Of a DNA stretch of 18,201 nt, positions 20 to 7,730 are shown in pieces. The DNA comes from Pseudomonadota bacterium (GTDB lineage: Bacteria > Pseudomonadota > Alphaproteobacteria > Acetobacterales > Acetobacteraceae), in the NCBI GenBank assembly GCA_021805485.1, contig JAJZFF010000024.1, positions 1-18,201 of the forward strand, in the 5' to 3' direction. The position numbers were made by a program, and so were the translations under genes. Positions within the stretch are counted from its first letter, which is position 1. Every line of letters starts with the position of its first letter. The notes under the pieces were generated by a model, which saw only the letters and a list, made by a program, of their open reading frames with translations, was not told the origin of the DNA and searched no databases.

Positions 20-1516
20 ATGCGCCGCCCGGCGGGCTTTCCCCTTCGTATCGCGCTGCTGTGCGCGGCGGCGGCCGCGTGGCACACGCCGGCGCTCAGC
101 CAGCCGGCGGCGCCCGACCTGCCGCCGCCAGGCACCGCCCAGCGGGCACCCACCCAAATGGCGCCCACCCAAATGGCGCCCACCCCATTGTCAACCAGCC
201 CATTGGCGCCGCCGCACCGCGCGGCCGCAGACACGGCGCACAGCATCGCGCTCACCGCCGGCACCGGCCGCATCATCACGCTCGGGGCGGCGGTGGCAAA
301 CGTGTTCGCCGCCGACCCGAAAGTGGCCGAGGTGCGCCCGGCGAGTCCGACGACCTTGTTCGTCTTCGGCGTCGCCCCCGGCGCGACCACCATCGCCGCG
401 CTCGACGCCGCCGGCCACGCGGTCGCCCAATACGCCGTCACCGTGCGCCCCTCGGCCTTCAGCGCCGACGAGGTCAGCGCCACCATCGCCCGCCAGATCC
501 CCGGCAGCTCCGTGAACGTCCGCGCGACGCCGACGGGATTGCTGTTGAGCGGCGAGGTGCCCACCCCAGCGCAGGCCGATCGCGCCGCCGAAGCCGCGCA
601 GGCCTATCTGATGCCCGGGCAGAAGCTCGATAACCGCCTCGCCGTCAGCGCCGGCATGCAGGTCAATCTGCGCGTCCGCATCGCCGAGATGTCGCGCACC
701 GTGATCCGCGAGTTCGGCATCAACTGGAACGCTCTCGGCAATCTCGGCCGGATGGGCACGATCAACTTCCTCACCGCCAACGCCCTCGGCTTCAACGCCT
801 CCGGCGCGGCCAGCCTCACCGGGGCCAACGTGGGGAACACGGTGAACGGCGTCATCGACGCGCTCGCGGCCGACAACCTCATCCATGTCCTCGCCGAACC
901 CAATCTCACCACGATGAGCGGCGAAACCGCGAGCTTCCTCGTCGGCGGCATGTTCCCGATCCCGATGTCCCAGGGGCTCGGCGCGGTTTCGGTGCAGTTT
1001 CAGCAGTACGGCGTGCAGCTCTCGTTCGTGCCGACGGTGCTCAGCTCCGGACGGATCAGCCTGCATGTGCGCCCCGAGGTCAGCGAGCTCACGACGCAGG
1101 GGGCGGTGCAGCTGTCCTCGGGCGTCGGCAGCGGCACCTTCACCATCCCGGCGCTGACGGTGCGCCGGGCCGACACCACGGTCGAACTCGGCACCGGCCA
1201 GAGCTTCGCCATCGCCGGCCTGCTGCAGGACAGCACCAACCAGGCGGATCAGGGCGTGCCCGGGCTCGCCGATCTGCCGATCCTCGGCGCGCTGTTCCGC
1301 TCGACCAGCTTCCAGCGCGCGGAAACCGAGCTGGTGATCGTCGTCACCCCCTACATCGTCCGCCCGGTCAGCGATCCGTCGGCGATCCGCCTGCCCACCG
1401 ACGGCTGGCGCATGCCGAACGACATCGAGCGCATCTTCCTGCTGCGCCAGACCGCCCGCACCGCGCCCGCGGCGCCGCTGCGCGTGCCGGGCGATGCCGG
1501 ATTCATCGTCCAGTGA
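20..1516 (+). CDS. cpaC: Tad/Flp pilus outer-membrane secretin CpaC (RcpA)
   Basis: This is the 498-residue secretin that forms the outer-membrane channel of the Tad (Flp) pilus. A signal peptide covers about residues 1-28 (basic start, LLCAAAAA core, ALSQ end). A Pro/Thr-rich stretch (about 30-70) contains a short repeated APTQM unit. The pilus/secretion N-terminal domain follows (about 74-145, HSIALTAGTGRIITLG), then a BON-like region (about 150-210). The secretin domain spans about 213-448 and includes the conserved VPGLADLPILGALF segment (413-426) and the closing VVTPYIVRPV strand. The start at 20 has AAGGAG upstream. The stop overlaps the GTG of the next gene by four bases, so translation is probably coupled. 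The tad order of the following genes supports CpaC rather than a type II or III secretion secretin. The family is clear; the exact signal-peptide cleavage site is uncertain. Confidence 0.95.
   Translation: MRRPAGFPLRIALLCAAAAAWHTPALSQPAAPDLPPPGTAQRAPTQMAPTQMAPTPLSTSPLAPPHRAAADTAHSIALTAGTGRIITLGAAVANVFAADPKVAEVRPASPTTLFVFGVAPGATTIAALDAAGHAVAQYAVTVRPSAFSADEVSATIARQIPGSSVNVRATPTGLLLSGEVPTPAQADRAAEAAQAYLMPGQKLDNRLAVSAGMQVNLRVRIAEMSRTVIREFGINWNALGNLGRMGTINFLTANALGFNASGAASLTGANVGNTVNGVIDALAADNLIHVLAEPNLTTMSGETASFLVGGMFPIPMSQGLGAVSVQFQQYGVQLSFVPTVLSSGRISLHVRPEVSELTTQGAVQLSSGVGSGTFTIPALTVRRADTTVELGTGQSFAIAGLLQDSTNQADQGVPGLADLPILGALFRSTSFQRAETELVIVVTPYIVRPVSDPSAIRLPTDGWRMPNDIERIFLLRQTARTAPAAPLRVPGDAGFIVQ
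151..180 (+). repeat. 15-bp tandem repeat, two copies, inside cpaC
   Basis: CACCCAAATGGCGCC occurs twice perfectly in tandem (151-165 and 166-180). A third degenerate start, CACCC, follows at 181. The repeat is in frame and encodes the APTQM units of the low-complexity segment just after the signal peptide, so copy-number changes would keep the reading frame. Confidence 0.85.
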
Positions 1517-1908
1517 GCCGCCCCATGCCCGCGCCGCGCCCCACCCCGCCGACCCGACCGCGCTCGATCACATCGCTCGCCGCAGGGCCTGTCTTCACGC
1601 TCGCCGCGGGGCTGGTCCTCGCCGGCTGCTCCTTCATCGATCCTTACCGGCGGGACGGGATGTGGAACCCGAACGGCGCCAACGAGGCCAATCTCGGCGC
1701 CATGGTCGCGACCCCGACCGATCTCGCCAGGGGGCAGAGCGAGCCCGGCAGCAGCGGCGATCTCGCCGCCGCCGCGGTGAAGCGGCTGCGCACCGACCGC
1801 CTCAAGACCCTCCCCGCCGTCGACACCACCGGCGGTGCCATTTCCGGCGGTATGAACGGCGGCGGCGGCGGCGGCGGCGGCGCGGCGGCTGGTGGCGGAG
1901 GCAATTGA
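1513..1908 (+). CDS. cpaD: Short CpaD-like pilus assembly lipoprotein
   Basis: This 131-residue protein sits where cpaD belongs, between secretin and cpaE. The GTG start at 1513 overlaps the cpaC stop (GTGA). A later ATG at 1525 is also possible. A lipoprotein signal ends at a lipobox, VLAGC, with the acceptor Cys near residue 39. The segment NPNGANEANLGAMVATPTDL resembles the conserved C-terminal signature of CpaD, a lipoprotein thought to help place the secretin. Most of the N-terminal body of a usual CpaD (roughly 200 residues) is absent. The C-terminus is an unusual glycine run encoded by eight GGC codons (1858-1881), followed by more Gly and Ala. The gene is intact and in phase with its neighbours, so I read it as a reduced CpaD rather than a pseudogene. 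Assignment rests on position, lipobox and one motif. Confidence 0.72.
   Translation: MSRPMPAPRPTPPTRPRSITSLAAGPVFTLAAGLVLAGCSFIDPYRRDGMWNPNGANEANLGAMVATPTDLARGQSEPGSSGDLAAAAVKRLRTDRLKTLPAVDTTGGAISGGMNGGGGGGGGAAAGGGGN
1858..1881 (+). repeat. (GGC)8 trinucleotide run in the cpaD-like gene
   Basis: Eight perfect GGC triplets encode the start of a Gly-rich tail at the C-terminus of the CpaD-like lipoprotein. The run is prone to length change by slippage in steps of one glycine without breaking the frame. Confidence 0.9.
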
Positions 1909-3170
1909 TGCCCGACGACCTCGCCCCGTCCGCCCGCACGGAGGATGCCGCCAGCGGCCGGCCGGAGCGCGTGCCCCTGCTCGCCTTCCTCGCCGACGCC
2001 GAATCCGAACTGGTGATGCGCGAGGTGCTGGTCGAGGCCGCGCCGGGCGGCATGGTGGTGCGGCGCGGCAATGTCCGCCAGGCGATCACCGCCTTGCAGA
2101 AGATGCCGACACCGAAGACGCTGATCATCGACGTCAGCGGCGAGGAACAACCGCTCACCGCGCTGGCCGATCTCTCCGACGTCGTCGAGCCCGATGTGCG
2201 CGTGCTCGTGATCGGCGATCTCGAGAACGTCAATTTCTATCGCCAGGTCACCCGTGGCCTCGGCGCGCTGGAGTATCTCTACAAACCGCTGACGCGCGAC
2301 ATGGTGGCGCGGCATTTCGGCCCTTTGCTCTCCAGCGACCGCACCGTGACGGAAGCGGTGCATGGCGGGCGCGTGGTCACCATCACCGGCACCAGGGGCG
2401 GCTCCGGGGCGTCCACGATTGCGGCCCTGCTGGCCTGGTATTTCGGCGTGCTCGCCCGCCGCCACACGGTCCTGCTCGATCCGGATCTGCATCTCGGCAC
2501 CGCCGCCCTGCTGCTCGATGCCAAGACCGGTTCCGGCCTGCGCTCGGCGATCGAGGCACCCCAGCGGATCGATGAACTGTTCGTCGAGCGCTCGGCGCAG
2601 CCGGTGGCCGAGCGGCTGTTCGTGCTCGCCGGCGAGGAGCGCCTGTCGGAACAGCCGACCTACGCACCCGGCGCGGCGGCGCGCCTGCTCGATGCGCTGC
2701 GGCGCCGCTACAATTTCGTCGTCGCCGACGTGCCGTTCATTCCGGTTCAACTCAATCGCGACCTGCTCAATCTCGCCCATCAGCGCGTCCTCGTGCTGCA
2801 ACCGACACTATCCGCCGTGCGCGAGACGTTGCGCCTGCTCGAACTGCCGAACGGCGCGCTGCAGCCGCGCCGGCCGGTTCTGGTGCTGAACCGCGTCGGC
2901 CTGCCGGGCGGCCTCACCCGCGCGCAGGTGGAGCAGGCGCTCAACGTCAAGGTGGACGTCGCCATCCCGGACCAGCCGCGCTACGTCGCCCAGGCCGCGA
3001 GCATGGGCCAGCCCGAGACGGCGATGCGCGGCGCCTTGCGCGAAGGGATCACCGCGCTGGCCCGCGAGGTCGCCTTCGTGCGTCTGCTGGAATCCTCGCT
3101 CGGCGCGAACAACACCGAGCTGCTCAGCGGGGCCGGACGGCGCCGCCGCCTGTTCCGGTTCTGGCGATGA
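1908..3170 (+). CDS. cpaE: Pilus assembly protein CpaE/TadZ, ParA/MinD-like ATPase
   Basis: This 420-residue protein belongs to the CpaE/TadZ family, which sits at the inner membrane and positions the Tad machine at the cell pole. Residues about 22-140 form an atypical receiver-like domain (LLAFLADAESELVMREVL, and LIIDVSG at 72-78). A SIMIBI-class P-loop domain follows. The deviant Walker A reads TRGGSGAST (162-170). A second Walker-like segment is DPDLHLGTA (191-199), and Walker B is FVVADVP (270-276). The signature lysines of a ParA Walker A are replaced by Arg and Ala, as seen in other CpaE/TadZ proteins, so ATP turnover may be weak. The start at 1908 shares its A with the TGA of the cpaD-like gene. 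A longer reading frame back to 1494 exists but would run through the cpaD gene and is rejected. The 3' end overlaps cpaF by four bases. Confidence 0.92.
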   Translation: MPDDLAPSARTEDAASGRPERVPLLAFLADAESELVMREVLVEAAPGGMVVRRGNVRQAITALQKMPTPKTLIIDVSGEEQPLTALADLSDVVEPDVRVLVIGDLENVNFYRQVTRGLGALEYLYKPLTRDMVARHFGPLLSSDRTVTEAVHGGRVVTITGTRGGSGASTIAALLAWYFGVLARRHTVLLDPDLHLGTAALLLDAKTGSGLRSAIEAPQRIDELFVERSAQPVAERLFVLAGEERLSEQPTYAPGAAARLLDALRRRYNFVVADVPFIPVQLNRDLLNLAHQRVLVLQPTLSAVRETLRLLELPNGALQPRRPVLVLNRVGLPGGLTRAQVEQALNVKVDVAIPDQPRYVAQAASMGQPETAMRGALREGITALAREVAFVRLLESSLGANNTELLSGAGRRRRLFRFWR

Positions 3171-4540
3171 GTGAGACGCTGCGCCCCACGTTCGGCCGGC
3201 GGCGCAACGAGTCCGATCCGGAGACGGCGAACGTCCAGGCGGCCGAACCCCGTTCCGAGCCGGTGCGCCTGCCGGCGCTGGGGCCGCTGGCGGAACTGAG
3301 GACCCTCTGCCTCGCGCGCATCGACCCGACCGTCGTCGCGACGCTGTCGCCCGAGCGCTTGGCGGAGGAGGTGGAGCGGCTGATCGCCGAGATCGCCACC
3401 GAGAAGCGCATCCAGATCAATGCGCGCGAGCAGCGCGAGTTGGCCGGAGACCTCGTCGACGACATGCTCGGGCTCGGCCCGCTCGAACCGCTGCTCGAGG
3501 ACGATGCCGTCGCCGACATCATGGTCAACGGACCCGAGCGCGTGTTCGTCGAACGTGCCGGCAAGGTCGCGCTCTCCGCGGCGCGCTTCCGTGATACCGG
3601 GCATCTGGCCAATATCTGCCAACGCATCGCCACGGCCGTCGGGCGGCGGATCGACGAAGCGAGCCCGATGGTCGACGCGCGCCTCAAGGACGGCTCGCGC
3701 GTGAACATCGTCTTCCCACCGCTGGCGCTCGACGGGCCGTATCTCTCGATCCGAAAATTCTCCCGCCGCGTCATCGATTTTGCCAAACTCGTGGAATTCG
3801 GTTCGCTCACACCGCAGGTCGCGCGCGTTCTCGAGATCGGTTCGCGGGCGCGCCTCAACGTCATCATCTCGGGCGGCACCGGATCGGGCAAGACCACGAT
3901 GATGAACGCGATGTCGCGGCTGATCGAGCCCACGGAGCGCATCATCACCGTCGAGGACGCCGCCGAGCTGCAGCTGCAGCAGCCGCACGTGGTCCGCATG
4001 GAGACGCGGCCGACCAATCTCGAAGGCAAGGGCGAGGTGACGCAGCGCGACCTGGTCCGCAACGCCCTGCGTATGCGCCCCGATCGCATCATCATCGGCG
4101 AGGTGCGCAGCGGCGAGGCCTTCGACATGCTGCAGGCGATGAACACCGGCCATGACGGCTCGATGTCCACCATCCACGCCAACAATACGCGCGATGCGCT
4201 GACCCGCATCGAGAACATGGTGCAGATGGGCAACATGGGCCTGCCCTCGCGCGCCATCCGCACGCAGATCGTCGGCGCGGTCGATCTCATCGTCCAGGTC
4301 GAGCGCCAGCGCGACGGCGTGCGGCGGGTCACGCAGGTCACCGAGGTGGTCGGGATGGAGGGCGAAGTCGTCATCCTCAACGACATCTTCCAGTTCGAGA
4401 TTCTCGGCGAGGGCCTCGATGGAAAGCTGCACGGCCATTACCGCGTCGGGCGGGCGCGCCCGAGCTTCCACGATCGTCTGACCTATTTCGGGCTCGATCG
4501 CGCCTGGATCGCCGCGCTCGAAGAGGGCGAATCGCGATGA
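3167..4540 (+). CDS. cpaF: Tad pilus assembly ATPase CpaF/TadA
   Basis: This is the 457-residue hexameric secretion ATPase (T2SSE/GspE superfamily) that powers Flp pilus extension and retraction from the cytoplasmic side of the TadB/TadC platform. The N-terminal about 60 residues are variable. The N-terminal ATPase domain includes DDMLGLGPLEPLL and DDAVADIMVNGP. Walker A is GGTGSGKTT at 236-244, with K242 binding phosphate. The Asp-box region is EDAAELQLQQPHVVRMETRP. Walker B is IIIGEVRSGEA, with catalytic E312. The His-box is GHDGSMSTIHANN. Length and motifs match CpaF well. The ATG at 3167 overlaps the cpaE stop (ATGA), and the gene's own stop overlaps tadB in the same way, so the block is probably translated as a coupled unit. 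Confidence 0.97.
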   Translation: MSETLRPTFGRRRNESDPETANVQAAEPRSEPVRLPALGPLAELRTLCLARIDPTVVATLSPERLAEEVERLIAEIATEKRIQINAREQRELAGDLVDDMLGLGPLEPLLEDDAVADIMVNGPERVFVERAGKVALSAARFRDTGHLANICQRIATAVGRRIDEASPMVDARLKDGSRVNIVFPPLALDGPYLSIRKFSRRVIDFAKLVEFGSLTPQVARVLEIGSRARLNVIISGGTGSGKTTMMNAMSRLIEPTERIITVEDAAELQLQQPHVVRMETRPTNLEGKGEVTQRDLVRNALRMRPDRIIIGEVRSGEAFDMLQAMNTGHDGSMSTIHANNTRDALTRIENMVQMGNMGLPSRAIRTQIVGAVDLIVQVERQRDGVRRVTQVTEVVGMEGEVVILNDIFQFEILGEGLDGKLHGHYRVGRARPSFHDRLTYFGLDRAWIAALEEGESR

Positions 4541-5493
4541 ATCTGCAGGCGATGCTGGCCGGTGGCCTGCTCCTGCTCGGCGGCCTCGGGCTGAGCGGCC
4601 TGTCGCTGGTGCGCGCGCAGGCGCGCAGCGAGCGGTTCCGCAGCCGGATGGATGCGGTCGTTGCGCCGCACGTGCCGAGCCGCCAGCGCCAGGCCACGCT
4701 GCGCCGCACCAGCGCGCGCACGCCGAGGGAGGATTTCTGGCACCGCGCCGCCGGCGTGCTCGGCTTCAGCCCGGACCGGCCGGAGCTCTACCCGGTGCGC
4801 TGGTGGATCATCGTCGCCGCGGCCGCGGTGCTCGCGCGTATCGCGGTCGGGCTGCTCTCGAACGTGGCCGGGCCGGGCGCCTATGTCCTGATCGTGCCGG
4901 CCGCACTCTGGCTCAGCCGCTGGTTCTTCCGCCATTTCGCGCGCCGCTACGCCAACACGCTGTTCACCCAGTTTCCCGATGCGCTCGGCATGATCGTCCG
5001 TTCGGTGCGCGTCGGCATCCCGGTCAGCGAGGCGATCCGCATCGTCGCCCGCGAGAGTCCGCAGCCGACCGCGCGGGCCTTCGGCAGGCTCTCCGACGAG
5101 ATCGCGATCGGCGTGCCGCTCGAGGATGCGGTGCGGCGCATGGGCGAATTCACCGGCCTGCCGGAATACCGCTTCTTCGGCACCGCGCTCTCGCTGCAGG
5201 CGCAGACCGGCGGCGGGCTCGCCGAGACCATCGAGACGCTCGCCGACGTCATCCGCAAGCGCGTCGCCCTCAAGGCGCGCGGCAAGGCGCTGGCGAGCGA
5301 GGCGAACACCTCGGCCGGCGTGCTCACCGCCCTGCCCGGCGTCGCCGCGCTCGGCCTCTATCTGATCAACCCGAGCTATATCGAGGTGCTGTTCAGCACG
5401 CCGGAGGGCAAGCGGCTGGTCGCGGTGGCGGTCGGCCTGCTGAGCACGGGCACCGGTATCATGCGCATGACCATCCGCAAGAGCCTCTCATGA
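4537..5493 (+). CDS. tadB: Tad pilus inner-membrane platform protein TadB
   Basis: This 318-residue protein is one of two T2SSF-type inner-membrane platform proteins of the Tad pilus (also called CpaG). One membrane segment lies near the N-terminus (about residues 5-26). Another hydrophobic region (about 88-128) precedes the T2SSF cytoplasmic domain at about 142-268, which contains LFTQFPDALGMIVRSVRVG, GIPVSEAI and the ALSLQAQTGGGLAETIETLADVIRKR region. Two more membrane segments lie at about 268-290 and 294-312. It starts by ATGA overlap with cpaF and ends by ATGA overlap with tadC. With TadC it should form the partner of the CpaF ATPase. Confidence 0.95.
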   Translation: MNLQAMLAGGLLLLGGLGLSGLSLVRAQARSERFRSRMDAVVAPHVPSRQRQATLRRTSARTPREDFWHRAAGVLGFSPDRPELYPVRWWIIVAAAAVLARIAVGLLSNVAGPGAYVLIVPAALWLSRWFFRHFARRYANTLFTQFPDALGMIVRSVRVGIPVSEAIRIVARESPQPTARAFGRLSDEIAIGVPLEDAVRRMGEFTGLPEYRFFGTALSLQAQTGGGLAETIETLADVIRKRVALKARGKALASEANTSAGVLTALPGVAALGLYLINPSYIEVLFSTPEGKRLVAVAVGLLSTGTGIMRMTIRKSLS

Positions 5494-6413
5494 CCCCGCC
5501 CCTGTTGCTCATCGGCCTGTTCGCGCTGCTGATGATGGCCGGCGTCGGTGCCGCCCTCGTCGTCGAGACCAAGCGCCAGCAGCGCTTCGCGGCGCGCCTG
5601 CGCAGCATCCGGCAAAGTATCGCCGGGGTCCCGGAGGCGCCGGAGGTGACGGGCCCGCTGCTGCTGCGTCTCGTCAGCCGGCTCGGCGCGGCGGTCGCCA
5701 AGAGCGGCCTGCTCTCGCCGCGCACGCTGGGCGAACTGGAGCACACGCTGCGCCTGGCCGGATTCCGTCCCGGCCAGGGCCTCGGCCTGTTCGTCGGCAG
5801 CAAGATGCTGCTGCTGCCGCTCCTGCCAGCGCTGATGATCGCGCTGCACCCGCCGGTATCGTCCTTCATGCACAATGTGCTCGTGTTCGGCTCGGCGATC
5901 GTCGGATTGCTGGCGCCGGACCAGCTCGTCCGCTGGCTGCGCAAGCGCCATTTGCGCGCCGTCGACCAGGGTCTGCCGGACGCGCTCGATCTCATGGTCA
6001 TCTGCAGCGACGCCGGGCTGAGCCTGGAGCCGGCGCTGTCGCGCGTGGCGACCGAGATCCGCCCCGCTCACCCGGCGGTCGCCGAGGAGCTCGCGCTGAC
6101 CGCCAACGAATTGCGCATCACCGCCGATATTCGCATCGCCTTCGGCAACGCCGGTGAGCGCACGGGGCTGGTCGGGATCAAACGGCTGGCGACGACGCTG
6201 GCGCAGAGCCTGCAATACGGCACCCCGCTCGCGCACGCGCTGCGCACGCTCTCGGCCGAGATGCGCCAGGAGATGCTGACGCGCTTCGAGGCGCGCGCGG
6301 CGCGGCTGCCGGTGCTGCTGACGGTGCCGATGATCATGTTCATCCTCCCCTGCGTGTTCCTGATCGTCGGCGGCCCGGCGATCCTGCAGGTGATGCATCT
6401 GGTCAAACATTAG
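5490..6413 (+). CDS. tadC: Tad pilus inner-membrane platform protein TadC
   Basis: This 307-residue protein is the second T2SSF-domain platform protein (CpaH). Membrane segments are at about residues 3-24, 105-120, 127-145 and 273-297. The cytoplasmic T2SSF domain lies at about 160-270 and contains LPDALDLMVICSDAGLSLEPAL, ELRITADIRIAFGNAGERTGL and SLQYGTPLAHALRTLSAEMR. These are characteristic of TadC rather than TadB. The ATG at 5490 overlaps the tadB stop (ATGA). Longer in-frame extensions upstream would cover tadB and are rejected. The TAG stop is nine bases before the next gene. Confidence 0.95.
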   Translation: MTPPLLLIGLFALLMMAGVGAALVVETKRQQRFAARLRSIRQSIAGVPEAPEVTGPLLLRLVSRLGAAVAKSGLLSPRTLGELEHTLRLAGFRPGQGLGLFVGSKMLLLPLLPALMIALHPPVSSFMHNVLVFGSAIVGLLAPDQLVRWLRKRHLRAVDQGLPDALDLMVICSDAGLSLEPALSRVATEIRPAHPAVAEELALTANELRITADIRIAFGNAGERTGLVGIKRLATTLAQSLQYGTPLAHALRTLSAEMRQEMLTRFEARAARLPVLLTVPMIMFILPCVFLIVGGPAILQVMHLVKH

Positions 6414-6422
6414 GAGACGTGG

Positions 6423-7730
6423 ATGCGCTGGACTGCCCTTGCCGTGCTGCTCGGGCTCGCCGCCTGCTCGTCGGGTCCGCCGCCCTTGCAGCTCAGCCGC
6501 CCGCCGCCGCCGCCACCGCCGGGCCAGCCGACGCTGCGGGTCGCCGATGCCGCGCTCGCCTCCGGCGCGCCCGATCTGGCACTGCGGGTCGTGCACGACA
6601 TCCTGGCGCGGCATCCGGACGACGCGGACGCCTGGGTGCGCCAGGGCGATGCCCTCTATATGCTGCGCCGCGTGCCGGAAGCGGCTGACAGCTATATACG
6701 CGCGCTGGCGCTGGCGCCGCGGTCGAACCTGGCCAGGCTCGGCCTCGGCCGCACCAAGCTCCCGAGCGACGCCACCGCCGCCGAGACCCTGTTCCTGGAA
6801 GTGACGCAGAGCGAGCCGCGCAACGGCGCCGCCTTCAACGACCTCGGCATCGCCCGCGACCTCCAGGGCCATCACGCGGCGGCGCAGGCGGCCTACGCGA
6901 CGGCGCTGGCGCTGACCCCGGACATGATCGCGGCGCAGGTCAATCTGGGCCTGTCGCTGGCGCTCTCCGGCCAGACCGACCGCGCGCTGAGCATCCTCCG
7001 CCCGCTCGCCGCCCGCAGCGAGGCGACGCCGCGCGTTCGCCAGGACCTCGCGGTCGCCCTCGCCCTCGCCGGCAACGACGGCGAGGCCGAACAGGTGCTG
7101 CGCATGGATCAGCCGGAGGGAGAAACGCCGAAGCCTATCTTCCTCCCGCGCGACGCGCCGGAAGCGCCGTCCGCCCCGGCCGTGATGGCGCCGACGCCGG
7201 CCGCCACGTCGGCGGTGATGGCGCCGACGCCAGCCACGGCCACGCCAGCCACGGCCATGCCAGCACCGGCCATGCCAGCACCGGCCACGCCAGCACCGGC
7301 GTCTCGGGCCGCGGCTGTCCGGCAAGCCGCTCCCGCGATCCGGACGGCTGACATCGGCACGGCCGCTGCGGCCAAGCCGGAGCGGCCGCGGGCGACCGAA
7401 CGGCGGATCGTCATCCGGACCGACGGCGATGCCTGGGTGGAGGTGCGCGACACGGCGGGGCAAGTCTACATCAACCGCATGTTCCACGACGGCGACAGCT
7501 GGCGGATGCCGGCGCGCGCGCCGGACGAGCCGGCGCTGCTGCTCACCACCGGCAATGCCGGCCACACCGTGCTCCTCGTGGACGGTACCGAGACGCCGCG
7601 GATCGGCCGCGGCGATACCGTGGTTCGCGATCTCGCCCTGGACCCGGACCAGGTCCGAAAGGGCCATCTTCCGGCGCAGCTCGCCGCCGCCCGGGCCGCG
7701 GCCAAGGCCGAGACGCCGGCGCCGTTCTGA
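6423..7730 (+). CDS. TadD-like TPR lipoprotein fused to a RodZ C-terminal-like domain
   Basis: This 435-residue protein occupies the tadD position, nine bases after tadC, with GGAGACGTGG spacing for a ribosome site. A lipoprotein signal ends in LAAC with acceptor C15. A proline run is at about 27-33. TPR-like helices cover about 38-225 (for example RQGDALYMLRRVPEAADSYI, FNDLGIARDLQGHHAAAQAAY). In tad systems TadD is a TPR lipoprotein needed for pilus assembly. A Pro/Ala/Met/Thr linker (about 245-324) is encoded by 15-bp tandem repeats. The last part (about 325-413) has no place in TadD: it reads DAWVEVRDTAGQVYINRMF, DGDSWRMP, LLLTTGNAGHTVLLVDG and DLALDPDQVRKG. That matches the pattern I know for the periplasmic beta-domain of RodZ (DUF4115). 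RodZ's cytoplasmic helix-turn-helix and single transmembrane helix are absent. TadD identity rests on position, lipobox and TPRs. The fusion could link pilus assembly to the wall or a partner protein, but this is inferred. Confidence 0.85.
   Translation: MRWTALAVLLGLAACSSGPPPLQLSRPPPPPPPGQPTLRVADAALASGAPDLALRVVHDILARHPDDADAWVRQGDALYMLRRVPEAADSYIRALALAPRSNLARLGLGRTKLPSDATAAETLFLEVTQSEPRNGAAFNDLGIARDLQGHHAAAQAAYATALALTPDMIAAQVNLGLSLALSGQTDRALSILRPLAARSEATPRVRQDLAVALALAGNDGEAEQVLRMDQPEGETPKPIFLPRDAPEAPSAPAVMAPTPAATSAVMAPTPATATPATAMPAPAMPAPATPAPASRAAAVRQAAPAIRTADIGTAAAAKPERPRATERRIVIRTDGDAWVEVRDTAGQVYINRMFHDGDSWRMPARAPDEPALLLTTGNAGHTVLLVDGTETPRIGRGDTVVRDLALDPDQVRKGHLPAQLAAARAAAKAETPAPF
7182..7301 (+). 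repeat. In-frame tandem repeats encoding the linker of the TadD-like protein
   Basis: Two types are present. GTGATGGCGCCGACGCC occurs at 7182-7198 and 7215-7231. Five consecutive 15-bp units then run from 7227 to 7301: two ACGCCAGCCACGGCC, two ATGCCAGCACCGGCC and one ACGCCAGCACCGGCG. They encode TPATA, TPATA, MPAPA, MPAPA and TPAPA. Paired identical neighbours suggest recent duplication, so linker length may vary between strains. Confidence 0.88.

Follow-up and report, generated by a model that had tools for sequence, protein, structure and literature searches.

A TadD-like lipoprotein ending in a RodZ C-terminal domain in an alphaproteobacterial tad locus, and the recurrence of this domain on Tad outer-membrane-type proteins

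The gene in the tadD slot of an alphaproteobacterial tad locus encodes a lipoprotein whose TPR part continues, through a repetitive linker, into a RodZ C-terminal domain (RodZ_C), an addition that recurs on Tad outer-membrane-type proteins of other lineages. The fusion lipoprotein probably helps to build an attachment pilus, and the recurrence suggests that the placement of such pili may be linked to cell-wall growth through RodZ_C. The window referred to below is the whole stretch of DNA analysed, 18,201 nucleotides in length; an earlier interpretation of it from its letters (the sequence-only reading) is partly supported by the results.

The fusion gene and its tad locus

The window contains the following features, those within the fusion gene being given with the residues of its product:

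20..1516, + strand: Tad secretin of the RcpA/CpaC type, whose C-terminal tail, PGDAGFIVQ, is conserved across the family sample
1513..1908, + strand: short CpaD-like lipoprotein, aligned below the cut-off to the final 38 CpaD profile positions only
1908..3170, + strand: CpaE-like ATPase
3167..4540, + strand: TadA/CpaF ATPase
4537..5493, + strand: TadB (T2SSF)
5490..6413, + strand: TadC (T2SSF)
6423..7730, + strand: TadD-RodZ_C fusion gene, 435 amino acids (open reading frame and Pfam)
6423..6467, + strand: lipoprotein signal peptide to Cys15, lipobox LAAC with Ser at +2
6534..7106, + strand: TPR solenoid, residues 38-228 (Pfam TPR families; 12 predicted helices)
7107..7400, + strand: Ala/Pro linker, residues 229-326, containing tandem repeats of 33 bp and 15 bp
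7401..7673, + strand: RodZ C-terminal domain, residues 327-417 (Pfam match 330-402)
7674..7727, + strand: C-terminal tail, residues 418-435, a low-confidence predicted helix

The genes thus run in the order secretin, short CpaD-like lipoprotein, CpaE-like ATPase, TadA, TadB, TadC and fusion, the last directly after tadC, as it likewise is in locus L044, and flanked on its other side by an alpha/beta hydrolase gene rather than by ispG. The lipobox and TPRs that the sequence-only reading had assigned to the tadD slot are both present. Judged by its sequence, the product is a lipoprotein with a predicted lipidated Cys15, a residue kept in 40/40 aligned rows, its own among them, and about five TPRs fall within residues 38-228 by Pfam. 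In a Foldseek search with the full-length model, which tested the TPR part alone, the fold resembles PilW/PilF but is tied with generic TPR proteins; the solved TadD chain was not found among the matches listed, by sequence or by fold. The linker is likewise built from repeats, as had been claimed: 52 of its 98 residues are Ala or Pro, its DNA contains a 15-bp unit repeated 4.9 times (7227-7300) and a 33-bp unit repeated 2.5 times (7155-7235), and it is mostly of low confidence (disordered) in the predicted model.

That the C-terminus is a true RodZ C-terminal domain, the central claim of the sequence-only reading, was confirmed by several comparisons. Pfam places RodZ_C (PF13464) at residues 330-402 with an E-value of 5.1e-10 and 39.6 bits (curated cut-off 23.9), and the C-terminus searched alone matches it with E 4.3e-11 and 43 bits. 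A separate full RodZ (HTH_25 and RodZ_C), which the sequence-only reading had proposed to look for, is encoded on contig C79 beside ispG; the C-terminus of the fusion is identical to it at 55 of 106 positions (52%; BLASTP, E 1e-30), with similarity extending beyond the Pfam match into the tail (HLPAQLAAAR in the fusion, KLPAQVATAR in the genome's own RodZ). In an alignment of 16 proteins, six TadDs (the fusion included) and ten RodZs, 24 columns are invariant. The domain is modelled as mainly beta, with seven strands and short helices, at a mean pLDDT of 77.5 for the isolated domain and at low confidence in the full-length model. A sequence search with the domain gave no known-structure match better than E 0.2, and Foldseek with the domain model gave zero matches at E<=0.001; an NMR model from B. 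subtilis is mentioned in the literature (PMC6946637). The fusion shares this C-terminal domain with RodZ (PF13413 HTH_25, a transmembrane helix and PF13464) but differs from it in its lipid anchor and its position away from ispG, and also in what precedes the domain: an HTH family is absent from the Pfam scan at E<=1, and no inner-membrane helix was seen in sequence or model, as the sequence-only reading had supposed, the helices being confined to the N-terminal signal, the TPRs and low-confidence helices at the end. AMIN and SPOR are not among the Pfam families listed for the product at E<=1.

The fusion itself is real. In the genome whose own RodZ lies on C79, the fusion gene is divided between contigs C1 and C92, which overlap at their ends exactly over 127 bases in the TPR part (window 6952-7078); C92 alone holds TPR residues 178-228, the linker and RodZ_C. 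The window, 99.9% identical to C1 (8 mismatches in 7078) and 99.3% identical to C92 (15 in 2177), runs through without interruption, and P0003 and P0004 represent whole fusions on other contigs. In the sister genomes G001 and G002, the hydrolase gene of the window recurs, at 97% identity, behind C-terminal fragments of the fusion. Assemblies of the fusion genus break inside the fusion gene (ends of L044, L152 and L153), those of the sister genomes in the linker.

The RodZ_C part of this TadD is under purifying selection. Rough dN/dS values by the Nei-Gojobori method over 91 codons are 0.17, 0.20 and 0.09 for the three pairs formed by the window, G001 and G002; between the window and G002, the TPR part gives 0.17 and 52 linker codons 0.35. 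The C-domain of the genus's own RodZ is held more tightly (0.00-0.06), and the RodZ_C copies on secretins, described below, give 0.07-0.23.

Spread and origin of the added domain

Additional domains on TadD were counted in a set of 121 TadD-like proteins, made up of the query and the top 120 of its 240 matches and labelled from their listed Pfam domains. Ninety-three bear no extra domain, 18 carry SPOR, six RodZ_C and one SH3, and three have a long unassigned end; two of the six with RodZ_C, P0001 and P0002, are near-identical. The SH3 of P0052 stands at the TadD C-terminus, in the SPOR/RodZ_C position. A survey of tad loci in 150 genomes (82 with a match) of one family, very likely the Acetobacteraceae to judge from the names of related proteins, covered 94 of 103 listed TadA places, with the nine lowest-scoring, mostly partial places excluded. 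TadD lies less than 500 bases from TadC in 66 of the 94 loci, and 62 of these slots are not cut by a contig end, the four cut ones including two loci of the fusion genus (G000, G002). The complete slots comprise 51 TPR-only proteins, seven with SPOR, one with RodZ_C (G060, 48.6 bits by Pfam) and three long proteins, two of which were scanned and gave TPR only in Pfam. SPOR was confirmed by Pfam in six of the seven slots, in two barely above the cut-off, and was assigned in L109 by a profile made for this analysis. In all seven (L054, L092, L095, L105, L107, L109 and L125), it follows an Ala/Pro-rich linker. Among the 26 records returned by a plasmid search with a TadD-SPOR protein, coverage of the query stayed below 80%. 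The survey of related loci proposed with the sequence-only reading thus found the addition to recur, in the TadD of G060 and the secretins of G084 and G159, yet the TPR-only form fills 51 of the 62 complete slots.

The neighbouring CpaD was surveyed in the same loci by a script that found the lipoprotein in 47 of 94, missing the short CpaD of the fusion genus itself. Forty-five have 78-112 mature residues, one has 28 (probably miscalled) and that of L132 (G033) has 228. Pfam, run on four short CpaDs and on that of L132, aligned the short ones to no more than the final 38-67 of the 200 profile positions, and that of L132 to positions 4-199. The short CpaD of the fusion locus lacks the part called OmpA-like in Caulobacter, as do those of 45 of the 47 family loci. 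That a wall anchor had moved from CpaD to TadD was considered and rejected, short CpaDs also standing beside TPR-only TadDs; the contig of L132 ends shortly after tadC, so that its TadD cannot be judged.

A RodZ_C scan of the 150 family genomes gave matches in 135 and at least two matches in 11 (G000, G001, G002, G060, G083, G084, G091, G122, G124, G158 and G159), compared with two matches in three of about 285 non-family genomes within a class sample of 289 (Fisher p 8e-4, genomes being counted without correction for kinship). The extra RodZ_C is that of TadD in G000, G001 and G002, the last two being contig-end fragments, and lies in the TadD slot in G060. In G124, it belongs to a TadD-like lipoprotein about 13 kb from the pseudopilin-like genes (recognised by eye) of a tad locus in whose slot no TadD was found. 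The Tad secretins of G084 and G159 contain three tandem RodZ_C domains each, scoring 141 and 142 bits in all, between the signal peptide and pil_N, the position that AMIN domains occupy in PilQ:

L065, 94-3057, + strand: Tad secretin with three RodZ_C domains
L067, 253-3036, + strand: Tad secretin with three RodZ_C domains, same genus

The second match of G091 scores 28.7 bits, over the cut-off, but covers 36 of 72 positions. Extra copies are also found in other contexts. G122 has two tandem RodZ_C domains in a contig-cut open reading frame (L189 15467-17784) convergent with a CpaE-like gene, and a third extra one beside a chemoreceptor-like gene (by eye). G083 and G158, of one genus (L187 6298-8172, L188 1365-3008), encode proteins in which a single membrane helix is apparent by eye, along with a long linker and a C-terminal RodZ_C but without HTH, and no tad gene was found in the stretch examined. 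Outside the family, G042 has a further RodZ_C protein (L191 1-1755) with no other Pfam family at E<=0.01, and two genomes of another family have a RodZ with a doubled domain:

L193 (G425), 460-2205, + strand: RodZ with two tandem RodZ_C domains, beside ispG
L192 (G332), 559-2100, - strand: RodZ with two tandem RodZ_C domains, beside ispG

Counted as placed gains at the level of genera, with the partial match of G091 left out, four of six extra RodZ_C domains came to lie on a Tad outer-membrane-type protein, or three of five without the seed genus, dropping to two of five if the unlinked G124 gene is excluded (P 1.7e-3 to 1.8e-5, assuming 300-3000 landing sites). The recurrence on such proteins thus exceeds a rough chance estimate.

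The origin of the copies was traced in a tree of 81 RodZ_C domains and 99 columns, the bootstrap of which had not fully settled. The TadD domains of the fusion genus group with the RodZ of the same genus (98/95), and the secretin copies, along with the long-branched TadD domain of G060, adjoin the RodZ of the secretin genus less firmly (89/76); in these two genera, the copies are nearest to the lineage's own RodZ. The G060 domain scores equally best in BLAST with its own RodZ, a second RodZ and the secretin copies; the G124 domain has no firm place in the tree, and its own RodZ is not its nearest relative. The membrane-protein copy of G158 groups with the RodZ of its genus (96/91), whereas that of G083 does not. 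P0071 and P0117 group with the RodZ proteins P0147/P0171 (99/84; 99/99 with two more). The TadD label requires four changes on the tree, three of which are forced by starred branches. One origin for all seven TadD-RodZ_C rows was rejected (AU p 0.0037, the long branch L051 included). A single origin for the fusion genus and P0071/P0117 was not rejected on the short domain (AU p 0.097) but was rejected on the TPR tree (p 0.016), where P0071/P0117 are sisters of a SPOR-bearing TadD (SH-aLRT 100), so that SPOR and RodZ_C may have been exchanged there. These two proteins have a shortened TPR part and an eroded look; residues 473-548 of P0117 are an RcpC segment following RodZ_C, and the C-terminus of P0071 looks, by eye, like the same RcpC stretch out of frame.

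A proposed role in pilus placement and its alternatives

Comparison with known systems suggests that the fusion is a Tad pilotin. TadD of P. aeruginosa is the pilotin of the Tad secretin RcpA, whose last four residues bind the TPR groove of TadD, and D139 in helix 7, an Asn in other TadDs, contacts the secretin end (PMC10499894). In the fusion, Asn139 lies in the seventh helix of the predicted model and is Asn in 35 of 40 aligned rows, and may correspond to D139; family secretins have GF near the C-terminal end in 75 of 76 cases. The two proteins are alike in lipoprotein signal, TPR solenoid, tad slot and a secretin with a short conserved tail, but the P. aeruginosa protein is described with five TPRs, at 27 kDa with its tag, and with no C-terminal addition (PMC10499894). 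The TadD-SPOR proteins of the same family share with the fusion the slot, TPR part, Ala/Pro-rich linker and one extra C-terminal domain, with SPOR in place of RodZ_C. Caulobacter, whose Tad system likewise combines a TadD orthologue, CpaO, with an outer-membrane lipoprotein, CpaD, differs in having a full-length CpaD (225 amino acids) and a dispensable CpaO, as against a short CpaD and an extended TadD in the window (PMC13170226).

Precedents for wall-directed domains on or near such pores also exist. PilQ is brought by its AMIN domains to the peptidoglycan of septum and poles in Myxococcus (PMC10653833) and to future division sites in P. aeruginosa (PMC5285504), SPOR domains recognise denuded glycan (PMC6895207), and for the periplasmic part of RodZ an interaction with the wall machinery (PMC6052060) and perhaps one with a part of the divisome (PMC6946637) are reported. 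Like AMIN on PilQ, RodZ_C is an accessory periplasmic domain on the unit of outer-membrane pore and pilotin, and the secretins of G084/G159 match that arrangement even in the N-terminal position, with three copies; unlike AMIN, it belongs to another domain family and in the window is carried by the pilotin-like protein and not by the secretin (PMC10653833, PMC5285504). In view of these AMIN, SPOR and RodZ precedents, the simplest reading of RodZ_C on a pilotin, or of three copies on a secretin, would be a link between the Tad pore and wall growth.

The role that we infer, and hold at roughly even chances, is that of a Tad pilotin with a RodZ-derived module tying the secretin to wall-synthesis sites. 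A RodZ_C module copied from the lineage's own RodZ onto the pilotin would hang at the end of a disordered 98-residue tether reaching from each pilotin into the periplasm, while the lipidated TPR parts would ring the secretin in the outer membrane and grip its conserved C-terminal tail. Docking to wall synthesis is plausible by analogy: the module might bind the wall-synthesis partner of the host's RodZ C-domain, be it PBP2/RodA/MreC, a divisome partner or RodZ itself, with the result that the secretin would be assembled or held at sites of wall synthesis, a job that AMIN of PilQ and SPOR of other TadDs might do by other means. The sequence-only reading had suggested docking to the secretin or to TadB/C; as TadD is the secretin's pilotin in P. 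aeruginosa (PMC10499894), docking is more likely to take place around the secretin, in the outer membrane, than at TadB/C. Several observations weigh against docking to the wall machinery, namely the predominance of TadD slots without an extra domain, the G124 copy, which lies outside the tadD slot and is not closest to its own RodZ, the long branch of G060, the shortened TPR part of P0071/P0117 with the RcpC piece of P0117, the single origin with P0071/P0117 that the domain tree did not reject, and the presence of extra RodZ_C domains in non-Tad proteins (G083, G158, G042). In addition, the literature covered establishes no partner for the folded C-domain, E. coli is described as keeping its rod shape largely without the periplasmic domain of RodZ (PMC6946637), Caulobacter makes pili without CpaO (PMC13170226), and in M. 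xanthus the secretin recruits the pilotin and not the reverse (PMC10653833).

Among the alternatives, the one that fares best, though unlikely, is that RodZ_C binds peptidoglycan itself and fixes the secretin mechanically, as AMIN, SPOR or the OmpA-like part of CpaD would, with wall synthesis uninvolved. SPOR in the RodZ_C position of other TadDs and the AMIN-like location of the triple RodZ_C on secretins agree with it, as does a CpaD in the window without the part called OmpA-like and peptidoglycan-binding in the Caulobacter account (PMC13170226). Loss of the CpaD part and gain of the TadD domain, however, were not seen to go together, short CpaDs also accompanying TPR-only TadDs, and a host-specific protein partner would account no less well for the kinship to the own RodZ in two Tad lineages. 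Moreover, we know of no report of peptidoglycan binding by RodZ_C, which counts against this alternative.

A still less probable account makes RodZ_C a passenger, an end tolerated without a role that arose through ready recombination between the Ala/Pro- and GC-rich linkers of RodZ and TadD. The repeat-built linker, the breaks of the fusion-genus assemblies in the gene and of the sister genomes in the linker, the eroded look of P0071/P0117 and the non-Tad carriers G083, G158 and G042 are in keeping with such a history, but the low dN/dS of the domain on TadD (0.09-0.20) and on the secretin speaks against it, as does the recurrence above the rough chance estimate. Improbable, too, is a docking surface inside the Tad machine that would bridge the secretin to RcpC/CpaB or other inner-membrane parts. 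The linker would be long enough to span much of the periplasm, a bridge between outer and inner membrane is needed in Tad systems, for example CpaI in Caulobacter (PMC13170226), and P0117 has its RcpC segment after RodZ_C; yet relatives have the same core tad genes without RodZ_C, and RodZ ancestry gives no reason for an affinity to RcpC. An assembly or annotation artefact, to which the split gene and the broken sister assemblies might point, is scarcely credible in view of the exact overlap of C1 and C92, the content of C92, the slightly different but continuous sequence of the window, the whole P0003/P0004 and the same hydrolase gene after the G001 and G002 fragments.

TadD pilotins, RodZ_C and accessory wall domains on secretins are known already; in the open-licence literature searched, no description was found of a TadD-RodZ_C fusion or of RodZ_C on pilus proteins, which in this Tad context appears new. 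The statement of the sequence-only reading that no described Tad system has this arrangement therefore stands for that literature, but the fusion is no one-off, as other lineages have RodZ_C on Tad proteins.

More tentatively than the role proposed for the fusion alone, RodZ_C may be regarded as a portable wall-targeting module that was copied more than once onto Tad outer-membrane proteins, in at least two cases from the rodZ of the same lineage, such that the pores would ride on, or be installed by, the wall-growth machinery, with the pilotin and not the secretin picking the site in the present case. If this is so, its carriers would be a pilotin C-terminus or an AMIN-like secretin N-terminus. 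In the literature covered, secretin placement is understood for certain type IVa pili, through AMIN, and not for Tad pili. The recurrent RodZ_C on Tad outer-membrane-type proteins would thus constitute a natural experiment on what the periplasmic domain of RodZ binds, and one that bears equally on whether Tad machines go in at sites of wall growth.
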